Positions 1,834 to 31,954 of a stretch of 38,859 nt of DNA are shown one piece after another. The position numbers and the translations under genes were made by a program. Source of the stretch: Acetofilamentum sp. (GTDB taxonomy: Bacteria > Bacteroidota > Bacteroidia > Bacteroidales > DYOH01); NCBI GenBank assembly GCA_020720625.1, contig DYOH01000030.1, positions 1 through 38,859 on the forward strand, in the 5' to 3' direction. The notes under the pieces are model-generated. The model was not told the DNA's origin. It saw only the letters and a list, made by a program, of their open reading frames with translations, and did no database searches. The number at the start of each line of letters is the position of its first letter. The stretch's first letter is position 1.

Positions 1834-2412
1834 TCACAATTTTCCACTTTCGTAATAATTTTTCAGTAATTCTCTCAATTTAAGTTTACTACGATGCAAC
1901 AAAGCTTCAATGGCAGGCACGCTCATTTGCATAACCTCGGCAATTTCAGCATAACTTAAATCGTCGTAGCGATATAAAACAAAAGCCTTTTGTTGATTAT
2001 CGCTAAGTTTACTAACAGCCCAATGTAATAATTTTGCTCTCTCATCATTCTCAAGTACATCCTGTGGGTCTTTATCAAAGAAATGCGGTGCATTGTCGGC
2101 TTCGTAATTCACTCCAAATACTTTTAAAAGCCCACCAAAACGCCGTTTACGGTTTTTAAACTTAAGTAAATCGAGTGCTTTGTTTGTGGCAATACGATAC
2201 AACCAAGTAGATAGCTTCGATTTTTGGTTAAATCCATTAATCGATTCAAAAACTTCAATAAATACTTCCTGCGTAACATCTTCAGCCTCATCGCTATTCT
2301 GAAGAATGCCGTAGCATGTATGGAATATTTTTTCCTTATACATATCAACCAATTGAAAAAAAGCCAGTTGATTTCCTTCTCTTATATCCTGAATAAGTTT
2401 TATTTCGTCCAT
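1834..2412 (-). CDS. ECF-family RNA polymerase sigma factor (RpoE-like)
   Basis: A 192-residue sigma-70 family protein with only regions 2 and 4. Region 2 is seen in EAEDVTQEVFIEVFESI followed by LSTWLYRIATNKALDLL. Region 4 is seen in LSYAEIAEVMQMSVPAIEAL, the helix-turn-helix that reads the -35 element. The frame is open for 17 more codons upstream, but MDEIKLIQ at 2412 fits the family; the longer form would run into the divergent aat leader. It heads the operon with the membrane protein and two Spy-like proteins, so it probably controls their envelope-stress response and its own synthesis. Confidence 0.88.
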   Translation of the reverse strand: MDEIKLIQDIREGNQLAFFQLVDMYKEKIFHTCYGILQNSDEAEDVTQEVFIEVFESINGFNQKSKLSTWLYRIATNKALDLLKFKNRKRRFGGLLKVFGVNYEADNAPHFFDKDPQDVLENDERAKLLHWAVSKLSDNQQKAFVLYRYDDLSYAEIAEVMQMSVPAIEALLHRSKLKLRELLKNYYESGKL

Positions 2413-2480
2413 TATAATTGCTTTCGTATTTTTAGACGATATTTGATTTGTTTTCTTTCGCAAGTATATATTATTTTTTG

Positions 2481-3176
2481 ATGATGGAGTTTAACGACCT
2501 ATTTTTTCAAGGCGAAAAGATAGCTTTTCCGGAGCAATCTTTCCTTGGCGATGGAGTAATTGCAATAGGTGGCGATTTCTCACCCTACAGACTACTTTTG
2601 GCCTATAGCAATGGTATTTTTCCGTGGCCCGACGATACTATTTATTGGTTTCGCCCCGAAGAACGTATGGTACTATTCCCGGATAAGTATAACACAAGCA
2701 AAAGTTTCAGAAGCTTTTTGAGCAAGCAAATTTTTGAGCTGCGAATTGATACACAATTTAAAACCGTAATGAAAAACTGTGCTACAGTAAAACGAAAAGA
2801 AGAAGGCGGTACATGGATTTGGCCCGAAATGATTGAAGCTTATGGCTATTTGCATCAATTGGGCTTGGCGCATAGTTTCGAATGCTATAAAAACAATCAA
2901 TTGGTTGGCGGATTATATGGAGTTTCGCTCGGAAGGTCGTTTTTTGGGGAATCTATGTTTTCGCTTGTGAGCAATGCATCAAAATTTGCCTTGTATCATT
3001 TGGTACAATTTGCACTCAGAAACACGTTCCAGTTTATTGATATTCAAGTATACAATCCGCATTTTGAACAATTTGGAGCACAAGTAATTTCCGAACATCA
3101 TTTTAGCGAGCTACTCAAAATTAATTTGCAACAAGAATCCTTGCAAGGAAAATGGACAGATTTGTATCACATGTAA
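2481..3176 (+). CDS. aat: Leucyl/phenylalanyl-tRNA-protein transferase
   Basis: A 231-residue cytoplasmic enzyme that moves Leu or Phe from aminoacyl-tRNA to N-terminal Arg or Lys of target proteins, marking them for ClpAP (N-end rule). Family blocks visible: LGDGVIAIGGDFSPYRLLLAY and GIFPWP near the N-terminus, GTWIWPEMIEAY in the middle, and GGLYGVSLGRSFFGESMFS, the strongest signature. The usual HL.SLGA block is altered to PHFEQFGAQVIS. Two adjacent ATGs at 2481 and 2484 give the right N-terminus; the open frame beginning at 2448 adds only an unlikely leader. Transcribed away from the ECF sigma operon, with about 70 bp between the starts. No co-transcribed partner is seen. Confidence 0.93.
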   Translation: MMEFNDLFFQGEKIAFPEQSFLGDGVIAIGGDFSPYRLLLAYSNGIFPWPDDTIYWFRPEERMVLFPDKYNTSKSFRSFLSKQIFELRIDTQFKTVMKNCATVKRKEEGGTWIWPEMIEAYGYLHQLGLAHSFECYKNNQLVGGLYGVSLGRSFFGESMFSLVSNASKFALYHLVQFALRNTFQFIDIQVYNPHFEQFGAQVISEHHFSELLKINLQQESLQGKWTDLYHM

Positions 3177-3201
3177 TAATATTTATGTATTTTTTGTTTA
3201 T

Positions 3202-3423
3202 ATGAATAAATTTGAGCGCATACCCGAACATATTGCAGAAAAAATATTTAAGAAGGCGTTTCAAATAGCGCACTACGAAAATTTAAGCTGTTTTGAGCAA
3301 AAACCATACGAAAGCAGCATAAATTACTACCCCGATTAAAAGAACTTTTTCGACAATGCCTTAAAAAAAAGGAATAATGGCTTTATCAAACAATTGCATA
3401 AAGCCAAAAGCAATAAAAGCTAA
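3202..3423 (+). pseudogene. C-terminal remnant of a PD-(D/E)XK (Rpn-type) transposase/nuclease
   Basis: The reading frame from 3202 gives a stretch beginning MNKFERIPEHIAEKIFKKAF and ending with YESSINYYPD before an in-frame TAA at 3337. The same frame continues after the stop with KNFFDNALKK to 3423. The pattern IPE..EKIF.KAF....NLS..E...YE.S..YY.D.KN..D.A matches the C-terminal half of Rpn/PDDEXK-family transposases, which are common in Bacteroidota. The catalytic nuclease core that should precede it is missing, so this is a truncated relic with a stop. A dispersed repeat lies about 150 bp downstream. Confidence 0.6.
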
Positions 3424-3570
3424 AGGAATTAGTATTCAAAAAAACCAAATTTTCGGTAGCTGCTTCGAAAAGACAAAAAAAATTTGAGAACTTCACACGT
3501 AAGTCTCTTAATAGTTTTTTCGAATTAGGCATTTAGCTAATATCACATACAAAAAAAAAGGAAAACTTAG

Positions 3571-3850
3571 GAATTAATTTATGCAAATATATAATAGCCT
3601 AAAAGCACTATATATTATATAATCAAACACGTAGTGGTGAAATCTTTGTAGAAGATATAATCTCGCGCTAACTCAAAGGTGCGTAGCACCGAAATCTAAA
3701 ACATTATAGCAATTTCGCCACTACGTGGCTTTAAGATGCAAAAAAATCGTAATACTACAAAGATATCGCCGCTAACGCGGCTAAAATCAAGTATATACTT
3801 GAGCAACCATTAATCAAACATTTTATAATCTAAACGCTTAATTCAATAGA
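3571..3850 (+). repeat. Dispersed palindromic repeat, copy 1
   Basis: About 280 bases closely similar to 35779-36071 in the same orientation, with a further inverted fragment at the right edge of the window. It contains a long imperfect inverted repeat (3632-3647 with 3710-3729, ends CACGTAGTGG/CCACTACGTG), a GGTGC-GTA-GCACC hairpin at 3678-3690 and a GCCGC-TAAC-GCGGC hairpin near 3768-3781. It lies between the transposase relic and the serine hydrolase, and has no open frame of note. REP- or MITE-like by structure; the mobilising enzyme is unknown. Confidence 0.75.
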
Positions 3851-3900
3851 TTTTAAAAAAAAAATCCGCCAATTATGATAGTATAAAGATATAAGCAAAT

Positions 3901-3908
3901 TATCTTTG
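3901..3908 (+). promoter_or_regulatory. Candidate -7 box (TATCTTTG) for the serine hydrolase
   Basis: Matches the Bacteroidota -7 consensus TAnnTTTG and lies 38 bases before the ATG of the broken leader at 3947. No good TTTG is seen at the -33 position, so it rests on one element. Confidence 0.4.
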
Positions 3909-3946
3909 TAAGTTCATAACTATTTTATCGCAAAATACACACAAAC

Positions 3947-4096
3947 ATGAAAAAATTAGTTTTATTTACAGGAATGATTCTGGCGCTGCTTGGAATGGCC
4001 TAAGTAGCGATGTTAATCACCGACACAGCTTATCTTATTTCCGGCATAAAAACAACTTACTTACGCGGCCAGACCAGCGTAGATATTTACGACTAG
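3947..4096 (+). pseudogene. Broken signal-peptide/leader region of the serine hydrolase
   Basis: ATG at 3947 opens a typical signal peptide (MKKLVLFTGMILALLGMA), stopped by TAA at 4001. In the same frame the sequence continues (LISGIKTTYLRGQTSVDIYD) to a TAG at 4094 and then runs directly into the hydrolase frame at 4097. The segment between the stops resembles the N-terminal part found in Bacteroidota relatives of this hydrolase family, as far as I can judge from memory. No frameshift is needed: two nonsense codons alone cut the leader from the enzyme. Confidence 0.7.
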
Positions 4097-4099
4097 CAG

Positions 4100-5116
4100 G
4101 TGCAGGCCACCAAAAGCATCAATACAAAAACAGGAAACACTTGGCCATTGCACGAAAACTACAACCAAATAGCACTTTCGGATACATTGCAAAAATACCA
4201 CCAGGCATTTCAATCAACGGATTTTCTGATAATCAAAAACGGCCGGATTTTCAGCCAGAAATATTACCTTGAGTCGCATCGCAATAATATATCGGGCGTT
4301 TGGTCGGTAACCAAAACATATACATCATTGCTGATACTAAAAGCCATAGAAGATGGCCTAATCGAAAGCATCGACGATCCTGTAAGCAAATACTTGCCCG
4401 AATGGAAAGTAGAACAAACTCCACCATTAAGCTTGCGGCATTTGGCAAGTATGTCAAGCGGCCTGTATTGGGAAGAACTTGACCAAAAACCATTTTCCTT
4501 GATTGCAAGACTAAACTTTTACGATAATCTAGAAAAATTTGTCTACAATTATTTATACGCCATTGGCAGTCCGGGCGATAAGCAACACTATGATTCCGGT
4601 GCAACGCAAATATTGGGAATGGTGCTAAAAAAAGTGCTACAAGGAAAAAGCATAACGGCCTATTTGGAAGAAAAATTCTGGATTCCCTTGGAATGCGAAA
4701 ACAATGCGCTGTTTATCATAGACAGCGAAAAACATCAAAACGAAAAAACCTTTGGCGGACTAGTAGCAACAGCACGCGATATTTCTCGTCTCGGTTTGGT
4801 TATCAGCCAAAATGGAATGTTCCAAAACAAGCAAATACTAAATGCCGAGCAAATGAAAATGCTAAGCACCATTCCGTATAACAATAAAACCTACGCTTAT
4901 GGAATCTGGACCGGCGAATATGAGGGTAAACCTTTTTATTACCAATCAGGGCATCGTGGTCAGTTTATAATTTCGTTTCCCGCCGAACAATTAGTTATAA
5001 CCCGACTTGGACACCAGAAACTAAAAAAAGACGATCAGGAAGATGTAAGCAAAGAAACATATTTTTTTATTAAAGAAGCACTTAAAATGATAGAGCAGCA
5101 GGAAAAAGTGATGTAA
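4100..5116 (+). CDS. Serine hydrolase of the beta-lactamase/class C type
   Basis: A 338-residue open frame of the PF00144 family (beta-lactamase, D-aminopeptidase and esterase relatives). Catalytic motifs are present: SVTK (Ser69, Lys72), Tyr164 in YDSGATQ for the Y-x-N/S box, and GHRG at 284-287 in place of the K-T-G box. The rest of the fold looks intact. The frame can only be entered from the GTG at 4100 because two stop codons interrupt the signal peptide upstream (3947-4096). If translated from that GTG the protein would lack an export signal; more likely the gene is a recent pseudogene. The substrate cannot be told from sequence. It stands alone, followed by a terminator-like inverted repeat. 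Confidence 0.75.
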   Translation: MQATKSINTKTGNTWPLHENYNQIALSDTLQKYHQAFQSTDFLIIKNGRIFSQKYYLESHRNNISGVWSVTKTYTSLLILKAIEDGLIESIDDPVSKYLPEWKVEQTPPLSLRHLASMSSGLYWEELDQKPFSLIARLNFYDNLEKFVYNYLYAIGSPGDKQHYDSGATQILGMVLKKVLQGKSITAYLEEKFWIPLECENNALFIIDSEKHQNEKTFGGLVATARDISRLGLVISQNGMFQNKQILNAEQMKMLSTIPYNNKTYAYGIWTGEYEGKPFYYQSGHRGQFIISFPAEQLVITRLGHQKLKKDDQEDVSKETYFFIKEALKMIEQQEKVM

Positions 5117-5185
5117 AAAGCCTATTTGTCGTAGTTTAATAAAAAGTATCAAAAAACAGGACAATTACAAAAAGTAAATACAAAC

Positions 5186-5228
5186 AGCGCTGATTTCAAT
5201 ACTCCATAATAACCAGATCAGCGCTTTT
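5186..5228 (+). terminator. Terminator-like inverted repeat after the serine hydrolase
   Basis: Perfect 9-bp arms AGCGCTGAT (5186-5194) and ATCAGCGCT (5217-5225) with a 22-base loop, followed by only a short T run. It lies about 70 bp after the hydrolase stop. The long loop and short tract lower confidence. Confidence 0.5.
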
Positions 5229-5230
5229 AA

Positions 5231-5587
5231 TAAAATCAAAATCAAATCTGTGCGTATCTTTAAACAAACTCTTCGCAATAAATAATTCCATTACAGCAGT
5301 CAATTTTTAAATTTTGCATAAATATTTTAAAAAAAATGTTATTCATAAGTGATATATCCTTGACTGAATATATTTATCTTATCTTAACTACAACAATCAA
5401 AAAATTCCTATTAGCAGCAATAAACACAGACAATTGGAACGTTTATAGAAATGCAAACGAATAAATCCTGCTTCAAAAAAAAAATGTATTACGCAGAAAA
5501 TCAAAGAATTTAGAAGAATAAAAGATAAAAAGTTCTAAAATATAAAAATAATTGATTAAAATCATATCTAATAAATATATATATAAT
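5231..5587. other. Long intergenic stretch before the ArsR-type gene
   Basis: Very AT-rich, with stops in all frames. I see no gene, RNA or clear repeat here. It may hold decayed sequence, given the broken genes on its left. Confidence 0.5.
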
Positions 5588-5595
5588 TACTTTTG
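5588..5595 (+). promoter_or_regulatory. Candidate -7 box (TACTTTTG) for the ArsR-type gene
   Basis: Fits TAnnTTTG, 21 bases before the ATG at 5617. No TTTG is found at the proper upstream distance; an AT-alternating tract lies there instead. Confidence 0.45.
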
Positions 5596-5616
5596 TAAAC
5601 GGAAATATACAAGATT

Positions 5617-5931
5617 ATGGAAAAAAAGCACATTGATGATTTGAAAATTGAGCAGTTAGAAGCCGCGGCCAACATGCTTAAAGCAATTGCACATCCATTG
5701 CGCATTGCAATTCTTAGTTTTTTGGAAGACGGAAAGCAACTAACCGTAACCGAAATTCACATGAAGTTAGATATCGAGCAATCTACAACATCGCACCATT
5801 TGGGCATCTTAAAAGACAAAGGTGTATTGAATTCTCGCAGAGACGGCAAGAATACTTATTACTCGCTACGACACTCTAGTCTTAGCCATATTATTGAATG
5901 TGTAAGTAGTTGCACAAATTACGATAAATAA
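5617..5931 (+). CDS. ArsR/SmtB-family winged-helix transcriptional regulator
   Basis: A 104-residue DNA-binding protein. The N-terminal helices (AANMLKAIAHPLRIAILSFL, about 17-36) and the winged helix (LTVTEIHMKLDIEQ, then STTSHHLGILKDKGV as recognition helix near 56-70, and a wing RRDGKNTYYSL) are those of ArsR repressors. The classic ELCVCD metal site of the alpha-3 helix is absent. Two cysteines near the C-terminus (Cys95 and Cys99 in ECVSSC) could serve as a redox or metal sensor; that is inference. No efflux or reductase partner follows, as fumC is next, 141 bp downstream and separated by a strong hairpin. Imperfect dyads at 5961-5992 and 6006-6016 (TCGAA-T-TTCGA) are possible operators. 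Confidence 0.85.
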   Translation: MEKKHIDDLKIEQLEAAANMLKAIAHPLRIAILSFLEDGKQLTVTEIHMKLDIEQSTTSHHLGILKDKGVLNSRRDGKNTYYSLRHSSLSHIIECVSSCTNYDK

Positions 5932-6019
5932 GTATTGCTGAAAACATTTTTCTGGCCTTTCTATCAACACATAAATATATGTTGAAGGATAGTCTAAAAA
6001 ATGTGTCGAATTTCGATTG

Positions 6020-6065
6020 AAAAATTAAATTTGTTCCATATTTTTTTTGAACAAATTTAATTTTT
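6020..6065. promoter_or_regulatory. Perfect 17-bp inverted repeat between the arsR-type gene and fumC
   Basis: Arms at 6020-6036 and 6049-6065 are exact reverse complements (core TTAAATTTGTTC/GAACAAATTTAA), with a 12-base loop. The right arm ends in a T-run, so it can act as a terminator for the upstream gene. It also ends only 7 bases before the fumC ATG, so in a transcript covering both it would cover the ribosome-binding region. It could equally be a protein operator. Confidence 0.7.
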
Positions 6066-6072
6066 TAATTAT

Positions 6073-7467
6073 ATGGAATATCGTATAGAACACGACACCA
6101 TGGGCGATGTGAAAGTGCCCGCCGACAAATATTGGGGAGCGCAAACACAGCGTTCGGTTACTAATTTCCCCATCGGAGAACCGTCATCCATGCCCAAAGA
6201 AATAATTGTGGCATTCGGTTACCTAAAAAAAGCAGCCGCTTTAGCCAATTTCGAATTGGGCGTGCTACCTGCCGAAAAAAAGGATTTAATCATAAAAGTA
6301 TGTGATGAAATTATTGAAGGTAAACTATTTGACCAATTTCCTCTGGTAATCTGGCAAACAGGCTCAGGCACACAATCAAACATGAACGTAAATGAAGTTG
6401 TTGCCAACAGAGCACATGTATTGGCTGGAAATAAACTTGGCGAAGGAAAAACATTTATTCACCCAAACGACGACGTAAATAAATCACAATCGTCGAACGA
6501 CACTTTCCCTACAGCCATGCATATTGCAGCCTACAAAATGTTGATGGATGTAACCATTCCTGGAATCGAAAAACTACGCAATACCATTGAGTCCAAATCA
6601 AAAGCCTTTTTGGAAATTGTAAAAATAGGACGTACGCACTGGATGGATGCCACACCGCTAACACTCGGACAAGAGTTTTCGGGCTATGTTGCGCAACTGA
6701 ATTTTGGGCTGAAAGCACTCAAGAATACCTTGCCCCATCTTACAGAAATTGCCTTAGGCGGAACTGCTGTAGGCACCGGCTTAAATACCCCCAAAGGATA
6801 TTCCGAATTGGTGGCCAAAAAAATTGCAGAATTAACAGGCAATCCGTTTATTACAGGTAGTAATAAATTCGAAGGATTGGCCACACACGATGCAATAGTG
6901 GAAAGCTCAGGAGCATTGCGTCAGTTGGCCGTAAGCTTAACCAAAATAGCTAACGATTTACGTGTAATGGCATCAGGCCCCAGAAGCGGAATTGGCGAAT
7001 TATTTATTCCGGAAAACGAGCCAGGCTCATCAATCATGCCAGGTAAAGTAAATCCAACTCAAATTGAGGCCATGACCATGGTTTGTGCGCAAGTTATCGG
7101 AAACGATGTGGCTATAGCTCTTGGTGGTATGCAAGGTCATTTCGAGCTAAATGTATATAAACCCCTCATGATTTCGAACTTTTTGCAATCCGCAAGATTA
7201 TTAGGAGACGCAGCAGTTTCATTTACGGATAATATGGCCATTGGCATAGAGCCAAATCAGGTTCGAATAAAAGAATTAGTAAACAACTCCCTTATGTTGG
7301 TTACAGCCCTTAATACACACATTGGTTACGAAAACGCGGCAAAAATAGCCAAAAAAGCGCATGCCGAGCATACAACTCTCAAAGAAGCCGCAATGTCTTT
7401 AGGCCTTGTTTCTTCCGATGATTTTGATAAATGGGTAGATCCATCAAAAATGATTGGCTCCTTATAG
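6073..7467 (+). CDS. fumC: Fumarate hydratase class II
   Basis: A 464-residue cytoplasmic enzyme of normal family length that interconverts fumarate and L-malate in the citric acid cycle; iron-independent homotetramer. The three conserved regions are present: [14 protein letters not shown] (96-109), [16 protein letters not shown] with catalytic His189, and the signature [10 protein letters not shown] at 318-327 with the active-site serine loop. [14 protein letters not shown] (130-143) gives substrate contacts. These blocks favour fumarase over aspartase. It starts 7 bases after a 17-bp hairpin and is followed by a strong terminator, so it is probably monocistronic. No obvious TAnnTTTG promoter lies just upstream. 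Confidence 0.95.
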
Positions 7468-25977: not shown

Positions 25978-27468
25978 ATGAGTCCATTGTTGGCATTTTC
26001 TATCATCGCATCGTATTTTGGCTTACTCATTATAGTTTCGTATTTTACCTCCAAAAAAAGCGATAGCAAAACATTTTTCACTGCCAACAGGCGCTCCCCT
26101 TGGTATCTGGTAGCATTTGGTATGATAGGCGCATCCTTATCGGGAGTTACTTTTATCTCAGTGCCCGGCGATGTGGGAAATACAAAATTCTACTATTTTC
26201 AATTGGTTTTGGGATATTTGGTAGGATATGCCGTTATTGCCTATATTCTGCTGCCGATATACTACAAGCTCAACTTAATATCCATTTACGAATATTTGCG
26301 CCAACGTTTTGGCTTTTGGTCGCACAAAACGGGTGCCGCCTTTTTTATTCTTTCGCGCACCATTGGGGCCTCTTTCCGCTTATTTTTGGTAGCGGCTGTC
26401 TTACAAATTGCCTTTTTTGGCCCACTGAGTATTCCATTTGCTGTTACTGTAGCCATTACTATTATGCTCATCTGGGTGTATACTTTTAAAGCAGGCATAA
26501 AAACAATTGTCTATACAGATACTTTACAAACCGTATTTATGCTTTTGGCTGTGGTTGCAAGCATTTGGCTCATAGCTGCAGAAATGAACTTATCGTTCTC
26601 AGGGATGATAAATTCTTTGCGCGAACATCCGTATACCGAAGTTTTTAACTGGGACTGGAAATCGAAAACCAATTTCTTTAAGCAATTTCTTGCTGGGGCA
26701 TTTATCACCATTGTTATGACAGGCCTTGATCAGGACATGATGCAAAAAAACCTTACGGTAAAGACACTTCGCGATTCACAAAAAAATATGCTATGGTTTA
26801 GCCTGTCCTTACTTCCGGTAAATTTGCTATTTATGTCGCTTGGTGCACTACTTTATATTTATGCCGAATATGTTGGCATTAGTTTCACAGTTTTAGACGG
26901 CAATTTAAAATTTATGTATGCAGGCATCTGGCATGGCCCAGATGAACTATTTCCTGTTTTGGCCATTCATCAGTTAGGCGGATGGGTGGGCATCATTTTT
27001 CTTGTAGGAACAATCGCTGCTGCATTTTCTAGTGCCGATTCGGCTCTTACAGCTCTTACCACATCATTTTCCATCGATTTTTTAAATGTTGATACCGAAA
27101 GTAACTCATTGCGCACATCGCGCACCAAACTATTAGTGCACATTGGTTTTTCGCTGCTTTTGTTTTTGGTCATTATTTTATTCAAAGCCTTAAATAACGA
27201 TACAGTTATAAAATCGGTATTTACTGTGGCCGGATACACTTATGGCCCCTTGCTCGGTTTATTCGCCTTTGGCATATTTACACACCGACAAGTAAAAGAT
27301 AAATGGGTACCACTTGTTGCTGTTTTATCGCCATTAATTACCTATCTCATTGGGCAAAACAGTGTGGCTTGGTTTGGCGGATATAAATTTGGATTCGAAT
27401 TATTGATTCTTAATGGCGCTATTGCGTTTCTGGGTTTATGGAGCATAAGTTTTAAAAAAATAGACTAA
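25978..27468 (+). CDS. Sodium:solute symporter (SSS family)
   Basis: A 496-residue inner-membrane protein with about 13 hydrophobic segments, typical for SSS carriers (PutP, SglT, NanT). Marks: SDSKTFFTANRRSPWYLVAFG near the start, ASLSGVTFISVPG, TIGASFRLFLVAAVLQ, VYTDTLQTVFMLLAVVASIW, and AAFSSADSALTALTTSFSID in the core, with the conserved Ser residues of the sodium site. The solute is not predictable. It begins 16 bp after the sulfotransferase-like gene. The 231 bp after its stop hold no gene. Confidence 0.88.
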   Translation: MSPLLAFSIIASYFGLLIIVSYFTSKKSDSKTFFTANRRSPWYLVAFGMIGASLSGVTFISVPGDVGNTKFYYFQLVLGYLVGYAVIAYILLPIYYKLNLISIYEYLRQRFGFWSHKTGAAFFILSRTIGASFRLFLVAAVLQIAFFGPLSIPFAVTVAITIMLIWVYTFKAGIKTIVYTDTLQTVFMLLAVVASIWLIAAEMNLSFSGMINSLREHPYTEVFNWDWKSKTNFFKQFLAGAFITIVMTGLDQDMMQKNLTVKTLRDSQKNMLWFSLSLLPVNLLFMSLGALLYIYAEYVGISFTVLDGNLKFMYAGIWHGPDELFPVLAIHQLGGWVGIIFLVGTIAAAFSSADSALTALTTSFSIDFLNVDTESNSLRTSRTKLLVHIGFSLLLFLVIILFKALNNDTVIKSVFTVAGYTYGPLLGLFAFGIFTHRQVKDKWVPLVAVLSPLITYLIGQNSVAWFGGYKFGFELLILNGAIAFLGLWSISFKKID

Positions 27469-27699: not shown

Positions 27700-28360
27700 C
27701 TATAGTTCAAAGGGCTTGTCAAACCTTTTACTATAAGCATTATTTCTTTTTAAGTTACTATTCCAATAGAAATTAGTTAATCCTGTTTTGCTAATCAGTC
27801 TAAATAAAAATCTTCTCAGAATTGACATTCTAAAAGGCCTGCCTAATTTGGCTTGAATCTCCTTAGAGAATGTTTCGTTTTTTGCAAAATACTCACCTAA
27901 ATCAACAAATTTGCTAAATAATTTCTTTGTCATCAAAGGAGGCATAATTTGAATTCCCTCAACACCCCCTTTTATGATCGTACCCAAATATTCACATTTT
28001 AATCTTTGGGTCAATTTTTTTAATACCTTTCAATATAAATTGAGTGTATGGCCTCCGGAAAGCCCGACTGAACAATAAAACCTAATTTTTGGCTTTTGTA
28101 AGTTCTAATTTTACAATGGTTTCAAAGAACTCCTTTACAATTCCGGGCATAGAATCAGTATAGCGCGGAAATATCGGAATAACAATATCTGCTTCCCTGA
28201 AAATCGATTTATGTTCTTCATTCTGATTCCGTTTTGCCAGATAATGTATTGGCACCTGCTCTGTACAAATCTTGTTATATCCGATGAGGAAATAATCAAT
28301 AAGTATTTTCGAATTGCTCTTCTTGTAACGTGGAGAGCCATTAAATATTACAAGTTTCAT
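27700..28360 (-). pseudogene. Frameshifted flavodoxin-like NAD(P)H/FMN reductase gene
   Basis: Three frames must be joined to read one flavodoxin-fold protein. The N-terminus starts at ATG 28360 (MKLVIFNGSPRYKKSNSKIL with the FMN phosphate loop) and stays open to 28082; then GFIVQSGFPEAIHSIYIERY in a second frame to about 28023; then LTQRLKCEYLGTIIKGGVEG in a third frame to 27700, ending NAYSKRFDKPFEL. Two single-base losses near A-rich runs (about 28082-28098 and 28013-28024) explain the shifts. It overlaps the upstream flavodoxin-like gene by 20 bp. Either a decayed gene or base-calling errors in homopolymers. Confidence 0.75.
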
Positions 28361-28892
28361 AAACGATCTCTTCAACTTTATGTTGGTCAATGTATTTTAT
28401 GTATTGCATCTTGCAATGAAAATTTAATGCAAATCGGTCATAAATATCATTAATAATCTTCAAATCTTCACTATCAGTATCAATCTCTTTCTCCAGAAAA
28501 AGTCCAAAATTTGGATAGTTTTTGTATCGCTTTCTGTGGTGATTCTCGCCATTTCTTAATTCAATATATGGATGAAGAAGTACAATAAACCTATCGGTAA
28601 TCTTTTTAAGTGCAGAACTTGTAAAACCGGCTATCAAAGGTGAAGCAAAAATAAAAAAGTCCGAATTAATCACTGATTAAAAAATTTCATCTGCATCATC
28701 ATTTATCGAACATCTTCCGGGAGTTTTCCACCAACAACTCCAGCAACCTGTGCAATAATGCAAATTCATTTTATTTAGTGAAAATAATTGGACATCATTA
28801 TTTAATCCAAATGCATGAGACAATTCTTCAAGAAAGGCAGAAAAATTACTTTTTCCGGTGCTTATGTCGCCATTTAGAATTACAATTTTCAT
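28341..28892 (-). pseudogene. Flavodoxin/iron-sulfur-flavoprotein-like gene with an in-frame stop
   Basis: One frame runs from ATG 28892 (MKIVILNGDISTGKSNFSAF, FMN loop) through a CTGCWSCWWKTPGRCSI cysteine motif of NADPH-dependent FMN reductases, stops at TAA 28679-28677, and resumes at once in the same frame (SVINSDFFIFASPLIAGFTS) to 28341. One nonsense change, for instance CAA to TAA, is enough. A GGAGGAG sequence lies directly before the ATG, unusual in this window. The neighbouring downstream flavodoxin gene is also broken. Confidence 0.7.
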
Positions 28893-29206: not shown

Positions 29207-29950
29207 TCAGCCCACTTCTTCGAGTAATGCAGCAAAATCTAACACCAATCCCGGTAATTGCGAATGCCGGAAAGTTTTAGAAAAGTCGTGAATGCTGTAA
29301 TGCACGCTATGGTCAAAAAGGTAATATTTTTTTCGGTAAGGACAAATAACCAGGCCGATTTCGGTCCCCGATGCCATCCATACCTCGCGCATCTTCTGTA
29401 AATTTACTTTAAGCTGATGCTTTTGAGACACAATTTCGCCACAAAAGCTAGGACTACCCTGAATATAAGTAGATTGATTTAATTTCTCGCGGGTTATTTT
29501 ATCAAAACTCACAAAAGAAAAGTCCGGCGCACGGCGCTGCTTTTCTATATAAGTTTCGCGGTTAATTTCGATATCGAAACGGGCTGTGCCATCATAAATT
29601 CGTCCTTTTTTACTGCTTCGGTTCCAAATAAATAAAATAGCTCCTATGGCCATGCTAAAAGCAGCAATCATTTCGGGTGTGAGCATATTGATAATAATTT
29701 TGCCAGGGAGAATAAATTCGGGTTTTATGTGCTGATTTTCGGCCAGAAAAGCATCAATAAACGAATCGTTCAATTGGAATTGTTGATGTAAATTTATTTC
29801 AAAAAAATCTTTGCTATGAATATCAAAATTTTTTCCACTGAGAAGCAATTTATTTTTTTCTGTATCAAAATGCAGGTGTAGGTTTAATTCTTGCAATTCA
29901 TCAAGAAATAACTTAAGTGATTCAATTTCAGGAATAACAATTTCTATCAT
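29207..29950 (-). CDS. Uma2-type (DUF820, PD-(D/E)XK fold) putative nuclease, copy A
   Basis: A 247-residue protein. The core fits Uma2/DUF820: PGKIIINMLTPEMIAAFSMA, RAPDFSFVSFDKI (the PD aspartate, near 140), GSPSFCGEIVSQKHQLKVNL (Glu of the active site, near 170) and WMASGTEIGLVICPYRKKYY. Uma2 proteins share the restriction-endonuclease fold; activity of most is unproven. The first 60 residues form an extra domain that differs from copy B, while the rest is almost identical. Last gene of the phosphatase-Uma2 operon, 3 bp after copy B. Confidence 0.75.
   Translation of the reverse strand: MIEIVIPEIESLKLFLDELQELNLHLHFDTEKNKLLLSGKNFDIHSKDFFEINLHQQFQLNDSFIDAFLAENQHIKPEFILPGKIIINMLTPEMIAAFSMAIGAILFIWNRSSKKGRIYDGTARFDIEINRETYIEKQRRAPDFSFVSFDKITREKLNQSTYIQGSPSFCGEIVSQKHQLKVNLQKMREVWMASGTEIGLVICPYRKKYYLFDHSVHYSIHDFSKTFRHSQLPGLVLDFAALLEEVG
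29216..29782 (-). repeat. Tandem 567-bp direct repeat, unit A
   Basis: Aligns with 29966-30532 at a fixed offset of 750 bases with no gaps. I count about six differences, at 29243, 29244, 29269, 29732, 29773 and 29774. It covers the C-terminal three-quarters of Uma2 copy A. Outside these limits similarity at DNA level is lost. Confidence 0.9.
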
Positions 29951-29953
29951 CCA

Positions 29954-30709
29954 TTAATCATTAATTTCTTCGAGTAATGCAGCAAAATCTAATTCCAATC
30001 CCGGTAATTGCGAATGCCCGAAAGTTTTAGAAAAGTCGTGAATGCTGTAATGCACGCTATGGTCAAAAAGGTAATATTTTTTTCGGTAAGGACAAATAAC
30101 CAGGCCGATTTCGGTCCCCGATGCCATCCATACCTCGCGCATCTTCTGTAAATTTACTTTAAGCTGATGCTTTTGAGACACAATTTCGCCACAAAAGCTA
30201 GGACTACCCTGAATATAAGTAGATTGATTTAATTTCTCGCGGGTTATTTTATCAAAACTCACAAAAGAAAAGTCCGGCGCACGGCGCTGCTTTTCTATAT
30301 AAGTTTCGCGGTTAATTTCGATATCGAAACGGGCTGTGCCATCATAAATTCGTCCTTTTTTACTGCTTCGGTTCCAAATAAATAAAATAGCTCCTATGGC
30401 CATGCTAAAAGCAGCAATCATTTCGGGTGTGAGCATATTGATAATAATTTTGCCAGGGAGAATAAATTCGGGTTTTATGTGTTGATTTTCGGCCAGAAAA
30501 GCATCAATAAACGAATCGTTCAGGTGGAATTGATTATTTACATGCAAGGTAAAAAAATCCCTGTTTTCCAGAGCAAAGTTTTTGCCGCTAATATACAATG
30601 CCTCTTTAGATGCAATTAAGCGCAAATGCGGATTTTCAGCTTCCAGCACGCCAAATTGTGTCATAAAAATTTGCTGATGCGGCAAAACAATTTCTAATCT
30701 ATTGGTCAT
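29954..30709 (-). CDS. Uma2-type (DUF820, PD-(D/E)XK fold) putative nuclease, copy B
   Basis: A 251-residue paralogue of copy A with the same PD...E core. Residues from about 63 to the end differ at only a few positions (for example G/R before HSQLPG and E/V in PGL.LDFA). The first 62 residues (EIVLPHQQIF, VLEAENPHLRLIASKEALYI) align weakly with those of copy A (shared SGKNF, DFF, LNDSF). It begins 3 bp after the SpoIIE-type phosphatase gene, so the three genes are probably translated from one message. Confidence 0.75.
   Translation of the reverse strand: MTNRLEIVLPHQQIFMTQFGVLEAENPHLRLIASKEALYISGKNFALENRDFFTLHVNNQFHLNDSFIDAFLAENQHIKPEFILPGKIIINMLTPEMIAAFSMAIGAILFIWNRSSKKGRIYDGTARFDIEINRETYIEKQRRAPDFSFVSFDKITREKLNQSTYIQGSPSFCGEIVSQKHQLKVNLQKMREVWMASGTEIGLVICPYRKKYYLFDHSVHYSIHDFSKTFGHSQLPGLELDFAALLEEIND
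29966..30532 (-). repeat. Tandem 567-bp direct repeat, unit B
   Basis: Partner of 29216-29782, covering the C-terminal part of Uma2 copy B. Near-identity of this segment beside diverged N-terminal segments indicates recent homogenisation (gene conversion) or a partial duplication. Confidence 0.9.
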
Positions 30710-30712
30710 TGT

Positions 30713-31954
30713 TTAGTACACTTCTACTCCAAAAATAGTAATATCGTCAAAAAAATCGGTATTTGTTCTTTTTATGTTCAGTTGATGCAACAATTCTTGG
30801 ATAGACGCATCAACCCTATCGGGTGTGCTAAATACATATTCGATAATATTAAGCCTGGTTTCCACCTCGTCGTCGTGTTTAATTTCGATTAAACCATCGG
30901 TATAACAAAGAATTTTGGCTCCCTGACTGCTTGTATTAATTTTTTTAATCCCCACTTTCACATGCGAAATATCTTCGAGCATTCCCAAGCCCATGCAACC
31001 TGTTTTAAGCTGTAATGACTCGCGCGTGGATCGGTTGTATAAAATGGGCGGATTGTGCCCTGCATTCACATATTCGAGTATTTTAGTCTCGTAATTGTAT
31101 TTGGCAACAAAAAAGGTAATAAACTTTTGTCCCTGAGCATTTTTACTAATAATCTTATTCAGACGCTTAATCAGTTTATCTAAAGGCATTTCGGGTGTGA
31201 AAAGGGCATTTAGATTGGCCTGAAAATTAGACATAAGCAAAGCCGCCGAAATTCCTTTGCCCGAAACATCGGCAATACAAAAGCCAATCTCATTTTCATT
31301 AAACTGAATAAAATCGAAATAATCGCCCCCCACTTCTAGGTGAGGCAAATAAAACGAATAAATGAAAAATTTCTCGTTTTGCGGATAAATCGAAGCATCC
31401 GGAATAAGCATAGATTGTATATTGGATGCCAGAATCATCTCTTTTCTAAGGGCTTCTTCTTGGAGACTCTTATGAAACAAGCGTTTATTTTCAATGGCTA
31501 CCATAATAATATTGGTTAGCGTTTGAATAAAATGCAGATGCTTAATAGTAGGGCTAACGCCATCCTGTTCTTCGTCGATATCGCCAATAAGCAGATAAGC
31601 AATGGCTTGCTTATTATGAAAAACCGGAATAATAATATCAAAAGTACGGAAAATTTTTTGCTCTTCGGCCAGTGTAATGGTTATTTCGTTAATTTCGAGC
31701 AAATCCCGGGGAACATCTATGTGTTCAACCGCTTCGTTATCAAAACCCGATTGCAAAATAATTCGCCACTCGTTTTCGTAATTATTAAATATTAAAACTT
31801 TACCAATCTTAAGCTCATCTTTAAGCAGTTTTTCATAACGTGCAAGCAAAATAGGGGTCGACACGTTGGCATTGATGGCCTGTGTAAATTCCAGTAGGGT
31901 ATCTAGTTTAAAATTACATAATTGTAATCTTTTAATGGCTGCCTGCTTTAACAT
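30713..31954 (-). CDS. GAF-SpoIIE/PP2C-type serine phosphatase (RsbU-like)
   Basis: A 413-residue cytoplasmic protein. A GAF-like sensor domain occupies about 20-160, a short helical linker (LFHKSLQEEALRKEMILASN) follows, and a SpoIIE/PP2C phosphatase domain runs from about 180 to the end. Metal-binding motifs are complete: GGDYFDF (209-215), IADVSGKGISAALLMS (227-242), NAGHNPPIL, CYTDGLIEI and DDITIF. Such enzymes dephosphorylate anti-sigma-antagonist (STAS) proteins or other Ser/Thr targets. No STAS or anti-sigma kinase gene is adjacent; instead two Uma2-type genes follow at 3 bp. No transmembrane region. Confidence 0.88.
   Translation of the reverse strand: MLKQAAIKRLQLCNFKLDTLLEFTQAINANVSTPILLARYEKLLKDELKIGKVLIFNNYENEWRIILQSGFDNEAVEHIDVPRDLLEINEITITLAEEQKIFRTFDIIIPVFHNKQAIAYLLIGDIDEEQDGVSPTIKHLHFIQTLTNIIMVAIENKRLFHKSLQEEALRKEMILASNIQSMLIPDASIYPQNEKFFIYSFYLPHLEVGGDYFDFIQFNENEIGFCIADVSGKGISAALLMSNFQANLNALFTPEMPLDKLIKRLNKIISKNAQGQKFITFFVAKYNYETKILEYVNAGHNPPILYNRSTRESLQLKTGCMGLGMLEDISHVKVGIKKINTSSQGAKILCYTDGLIEIKHDDEVETRLNIIEYVFSTPDRVDASIQELLHQLNIKRTNTDFFDDITIFGVEVY

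Follow-up and report, generated by a model that had tools for sequence, protein, structure and literature searches.

The window, a 38,859-nucleotide stretch of Acetofilamentum sp. DNA (contig DYOH01000030.1), comes from a draft genome of 3.8 Mb in 143 contigs. Its minus strand carries a SpoIIE-type phosphatase gene followed, after 3 nt, by a Uma2-type gene (B) and, after a further 3 nt, by a second one (A). The phosphatase gene is probably co-transcribed with the Uma2 pair and is a neighbor that lies outside the Uma2 duplication. The features of the locus are as follows:

30713-31954, minus strand: SpoIIE-type phosphatase gene, directly upstream of B (Pfam SpoIIE, E 6e-37)
29954-30709, minus strand: Uma2 gene B, 251 aa, first in the tandem pair (ORF; Pfam Uma2, E 1.5e-8; model pLDDT 86)
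30533-30709, minus strand: N-terminal extension of B (residues 1 to ~60), diverged, with helices and a beta hairpin predicted (divergence, model)
30362-30430, minus strand: helix alpha-1 of B, residues 94-116, hydrophobic, identical in A (model, alignment, hydropathy)
29966-30532, minus strand: homogenized tract in B (comparison with the tract in A)
29207-29950, minus strand: Uma2 gene A, 247 aa, second in the tandem pair (ORF; Pfam Uma2, E 1.2e-8)
29783-29950, minus strand: diverged N-terminal extension of A (pS 0.55 and pN 0.40 to B; 36% amino acid identity)
29612-29680, minus strand: helix alpha-1 of A (offset 750 from B; model)
29216-29782, minus strand: homogenized tract in A, the entire canonical Uma2 fold (567 bp, 6 differences to 29966-30532)

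A preliminary description of the locus had counted about six differences over 567 bp and taken the first 60 or so codons of the two genes to be diverged homologs. Indeed, at an offset of 750 there are exactly six mismatches between the two tracts (29243, 29244, 29269, 29732, 29773 and 29774 in A), all within 54 bp of a tract end, and the central 462 bp are identical. The first ~57 codons are diverged homologs, with 36% amino acid identity. Computed on either side of the break, as had been proposed, pS is 0.55 in the N-terminal part, where silent sites are saturated, vs. 0.04 in the shared part; the corresponding pN values are 0.40 and 0.015. This contrast rules out even divergence of two duplicates and is far beyond chance. 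Both reading frames are intact, and the 3′ flanks of the two genes are unrelated. It should be noted that the assembler may have exaggerated the inner 462-bp identity, the contig being one of 143 in a draft; assembler inflation is, however, no explanation for the differences at the tract edges or for the two distinct N-termini.

The same-genus relative G001 has a phosphatase with 86% identity to that of the window, and the next gene encodes a transporter, with no Uma2 gene between them; the window counterpart of this transporter lies at 25978-27468, beyond the Uma2 pair. A Uma2 gene after the phosphatase is absent from all five relatives compared (G001, G002, G085, G018 and G058), and A and B are therefore probably a lineage-specific gain, the simplest reading being that the pair was acquired in the lineage of the window. 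G001 does have a related Uma2 gene elsewhere in its genome, cut inside the core by a contig end (L030, at 4150), as would be expected if this genome carried another copy sharing that core. Between the Uma2 pair and the transporter, an apparent remnant of a flavodoxin-like or NADPH-dependent FMN reductase is spread over several ORFs (28082-28892, minus strand), and only the ORF at 28082-28390 gives a Pfam match. No cognate methyltransferase, as in a restriction-modification system, was recognized by eye among the window ORF translations, and the neighbors of the pair include no recognizable defense genes.

Both proteins score above the curated cut-off of 27 bits for Pfam Uma2 (PF05685), at 35.0 bits for A and 34.8 bits for B. 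The family is also known as DUF820 or COG4636 (Feder and Bujnicki 2005, PMC551604), with solved structures 1wdj, 3ot2, 6okh and 9y1l. An AlphaFold2 model of B (mean pLDDT 86) consists of an N-terminal extension followed by a complete Uma2 fold; a fold search with it gave Z scores of 16-21 to 1wdj, 9y1l, 6okh and 3ot2, the match to 1wdj having a Z of 20.8 and a deviation of 1.9 A over 144 residues. Searching the sequence of B against solved structures gave no convincing match. Residues D146, E175 and K189 are invariant across the alignment of the subfamily to which A and B belong, and correspond to the PD-EXX-K site of COG4636 (motif in PMC551604). The canonical HQ that precedes helix alpha-1 is missing in this subfamily, which reads LTPEMIAAF there in the alignments. 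Most COG4636 members have the conserved His before alpha-1, but some lineages lack it (PMC551604), and its loss does not therefore exclude A and B from Uma2. The best explanation is that A and B are tandem paralogs of a predicted PD-(D/E)XK nuclease.

In the model, the extension of B has helices within residues 12-25 and strands at 30-33, 38-41 and 52-56, and the edge of the homogenized tract, at about residue 60, falls in the linker preceding a helix at 65-74. The sharp tract edge thus coincides with the predicted boundary between extension and Uma2 fold. Modeled only as part of whole B, the extension found no clear separate match in the fold searches. Judged by eye, its helix-hairpin order resembles the start of the canonical fold, and an internal duplication is possible.

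Surveys with PF05685 at three taxonomic levels (order, 393 genomes; class, 396; phylum Bacteroidota, 198) recovered many tandem pairs, ruling out a purely local oddity of the window. In most of the tandem pairs examined, codon alignments reveal near-identical codons on either side of a single diverged segment, which starts immediately after the motif PSxxHQ and spans ~20-25 residues in canonical pairs. Pooled over 18 tandem pairings from 14 loci, with the window pair left out, pS and pN are 0.64 and 0.30 in this patch, compared to 0.38 and 0.08 in the flanks, pairs within one array not being independent. In the 14 pairs with a clear anchor, the amino acid difference is 0.5-0.6 over the first 20 residues past HQ and mostly <0.2 elsewhere; silent differences are likewise highest in the patch and fall off on both sides. 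The variable segment corresponds to helix alpha-1 (residues 40-59) of the predicted canonical structure, and its variable positions recur with a helical period (p 0.007), the opposite face being hydrophobic.

Not all tandem pairs follow this pattern. Some canonical pairs are completely identical, and evenly diverged pairs also occur (in G677 and G551). The sole tandem pair found when cyanobacterial plasmids were tried, in Pseudanabaena PCC 7367, is a negative example, its two genes belonging to unrelated subtypes. Completely identical pairs in drafts (L026:986-2518, L028:3415-6144, L060:1431-2609 and L061:1434-2621) are either very recent duplications or assembly artefacts; they are in tandem, except in L028, where the copies lie ~1.2 kb apart. 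At the same L028 locus (2400-6770), Uma2 and other genes are surrounded by interspersed repeats of ~60-150 bp that include a TTATCTC...GAGATAG hairpin. Integron-like cassettes were considered at G058:C192 and rejected; the repeats there look like interspersed promoter or hairpin elements, and no integron was seen by eye. A viral contig (IMGVR_UViG_3300043932_000246; L092, L095) carries two similar Uma2 genes ~22 kb apart, whose alpha-1 helices diverge more than their surroundings.

The subfamily of A and B is rare among Uma2: an order-wide profile search matched 10 of the 393 genomes, not all of which have the N-terminal extension, and a scan of genome contigs yielded three loci only, on contigs whose lengths agree with genomes already encountered. 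Here alpha-1 behaves differently. It is the counterpart, in the model, of the variable patch of canonical pairs, and has a mean hydropathy of 1.6 in A and B vs. -0.34 for canonical patches. The alpha-1 of either protein is 95% identical to that of the G001 Uma2 gene, compared to 65% for the core and 26-31% for the extension. Since alpha-1 is hydrophobic and conserved and the extension is not conserved, the segment kept apart in this subfamily is the extension, which may cover alpha-1. The preliminary description had suggested looking for the same N-terminal variation at related loci. The other three near-identical subfamily pairs are uniform or nearly so over the whole gene, those at G058:C33 and G058:C192 being identical and the genes at G085:C62 differing only at the very end. 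The N-terminal form of the kept-apart segment is thus seen in one pair, A and B.

Dispersed Uma2 paralogs of the same genome served as a control for tandem arrangement. Silent differences in patch and flanks are 0.58 and 0.54 for these dispersed pairs, compared to 0.48 and 0.24 for tandem pairs; the stratified z for this contrast is 7.2, with gene-sharing pairs that are not independent, many dispersed pairs from one genome and one completely identical tandem pair included. At the amino acid level, the patch is the most variable region among tandem and dispersed pairs alike. Since the silent contrast between patch and flank is confined to the tandem set, flank homogenization with a spared patch goes with tandem proximity.

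The strongest evidence in the analysis is a comparison of two species of one genus, G802 (one contig of 3.43 Mb) and G806 (two contigs), which have in common one tandem pair of Uma2 genes and one array of three. Between species, the patch of the pair differs at 3 of 90 nt in gene a and 13 of 84 nt in gene b, vs. 29/84 and 36/84 nt between neighbors. In the C-terminal flank, the differences are 0.048 and 0.088 between neighbors, and 0.109 and 0.061 between orthologs. In the array, one patch type is unchanged between species (0/90 nt) and another differs at 3/90; the two genomes arrange these types in a different order. Gene t3, the third of the G806 array, has a C-terminal body that matches G802 t3 (0.071), but its patch belongs to a different type, from which it differs by 0.167, vs. 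0.471 from the patch of G802 t3; it appears from these alignments that the patch was moved onto another gene body. Because patches are conserved between species and divergent between neighbors, they are inherited, conserved types and not merely tolerant sequence.

Gene conversion between neighbors is well supported by these comparisons as the process that would have homogenized the Uma2 bodies. Neighbors are closer than unlinked paralogs at silent flank sites (0.24 vs. 0.54), as conversion predicts, and paralogs within a species are at least as alike as orthologs in the C-terminal flank of G802 and G806, which are relatives and not the window pair. The preliminary description had proposed conversion of the nuclease core with the N-terminal part kept apart. 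The first half of this proposal is upheld by the silent contrast, the dispersed control and the G802/G806 comparison; the second does not hold generally, the segment kept apart in most pairs being alpha-1. Its picture of a fixed effector that carries a variable recognition domain would fit A and B.

We propose that conversion between neighboring Uma2 genes homogenizes the nuclease fold, and that conversions erasing the difference in one segment do not persist. Selection for that difference is the likeliest cause, since segment types are conserved between species. In ordinary Uma2 proteins this segment would be the face of alpha-1 that is exposed, and in the window subfamily the N-terminal extension; it would most likely be a specificity surface setting what each copy binds, such that a tandem array would offer several specificities on one common nuclease scaffold. 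For A and B, we give about even chances to the reading that they are putative nucleases with a conversion-homogenized fold and a kept-apart segment, most likely a putative specificity surface. Somewhat more tentatively, tandem Uma2 arrays at large may be specificity arrays, in which a uniform scaffold bears exchangeable, heritable segments carrying recognition or pairing codes. Arguing against the main reading are the single pair with the N-terminal form and the existence of tandem pairs that are identical, evenly diverged or of unrelated subtypes.

A rather unlikely alternative is that Uma2 proteins act as homodimers and that the segment is an interface blocking mixed dimers of neighbors, not a surface for an outside ligand. 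A helix that is hydrophobic and conserved on one face and variable on the other suits a protein interface, chains A and B of 1wdj share 153 interface residue pairs (PMC7582526), and tandem, probably co-transcribed copies are those most in need of such separation; however, the amino acid divergence of alpha-1 is equally high among dispersed paralogs. This same breadth of variation, alpha-1 being the most variable amino acid stretch of the family in tandem and dispersed copies alike, would suit a segment that simply tolerates change and whose mismatches block conversion tracts, divergence alone being enough to reduce conversion. We consider this account, which does away with selection for difference, improbable, given how little the segment types change from one species to the other (0/90, 3/90, 3/90 and, in one case, 13/84 nt) when neighbors differ by 0.35-0.43.

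Lastly, the window pair might be an assembly artefact or a bare partial duplication, with one core copied or duplicated by the assembler. The 143-contig draft, the 462 bp of exact identity and the several other draft pairs that are completely identical are in keeping with this. It is nonetheless very improbable, as there are differences at both edges of the tract, the N-termini and 3′ flanks are distinct, the frames are intact, and the same architecture is found within contigs of 1.5 to 3.4 Mb, including the single contig of G802.

A and B share with the Uma2/DUF820/COG4636 family at large its fold, PD-EXX-K residues, tandem duplication and horizontal spread, but differ from canonical members by their ~60-residue N-terminal extension, the lack of a His before alpha-1 and the hydrophobic nature of that helix. 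The family is large and often multicopy, making up >2% of the genes of Gloeobacter violaceus, and COG4636 was proposed to be a selfish, recombinogenic nuclease (PMC551604). Makarova et al. (2009, PMC2701414) also predicted that Uma2 proteins are solo toxins, encoded in cassettes of paralogs. Like these cassettes, A and B are tandem paralogs with no evident antitoxin gene; the accessible parts of that paper, where toxicity is a prediction, do not describe which part differs between paralogs. The PADLOC candidate defense gene PDC-S03 matches a canonical Uma2 relative at 1.9e-48, unlike A and B, whose matches are weak (E about 1e-3 over about 75 residues).

Tandem duplication of Uma2 was thus already known. 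The split into body and segment is apparently new; we found no earlier report of it, and no experimental assignment of Uma2 function, in the accessible literature searched, which lay mostly outside subscription journals. The comparisons single out one helix face, or a small N-terminal domain, as the part kept different between copies and as the probable determinant of specificity in a large family, and turn the question of Uma2 function into swap experiments with clear predictions. In Type I restriction systems, the HsdS subunit combines a conserved scaffold with exchangeable variable segments, the target-recognition domains. Uma2 pairs would resemble HsdS by analogy, in outline of working only; unlike in HsdS, what varies belongs to the nuclease itself, as a single helix or a small extension.
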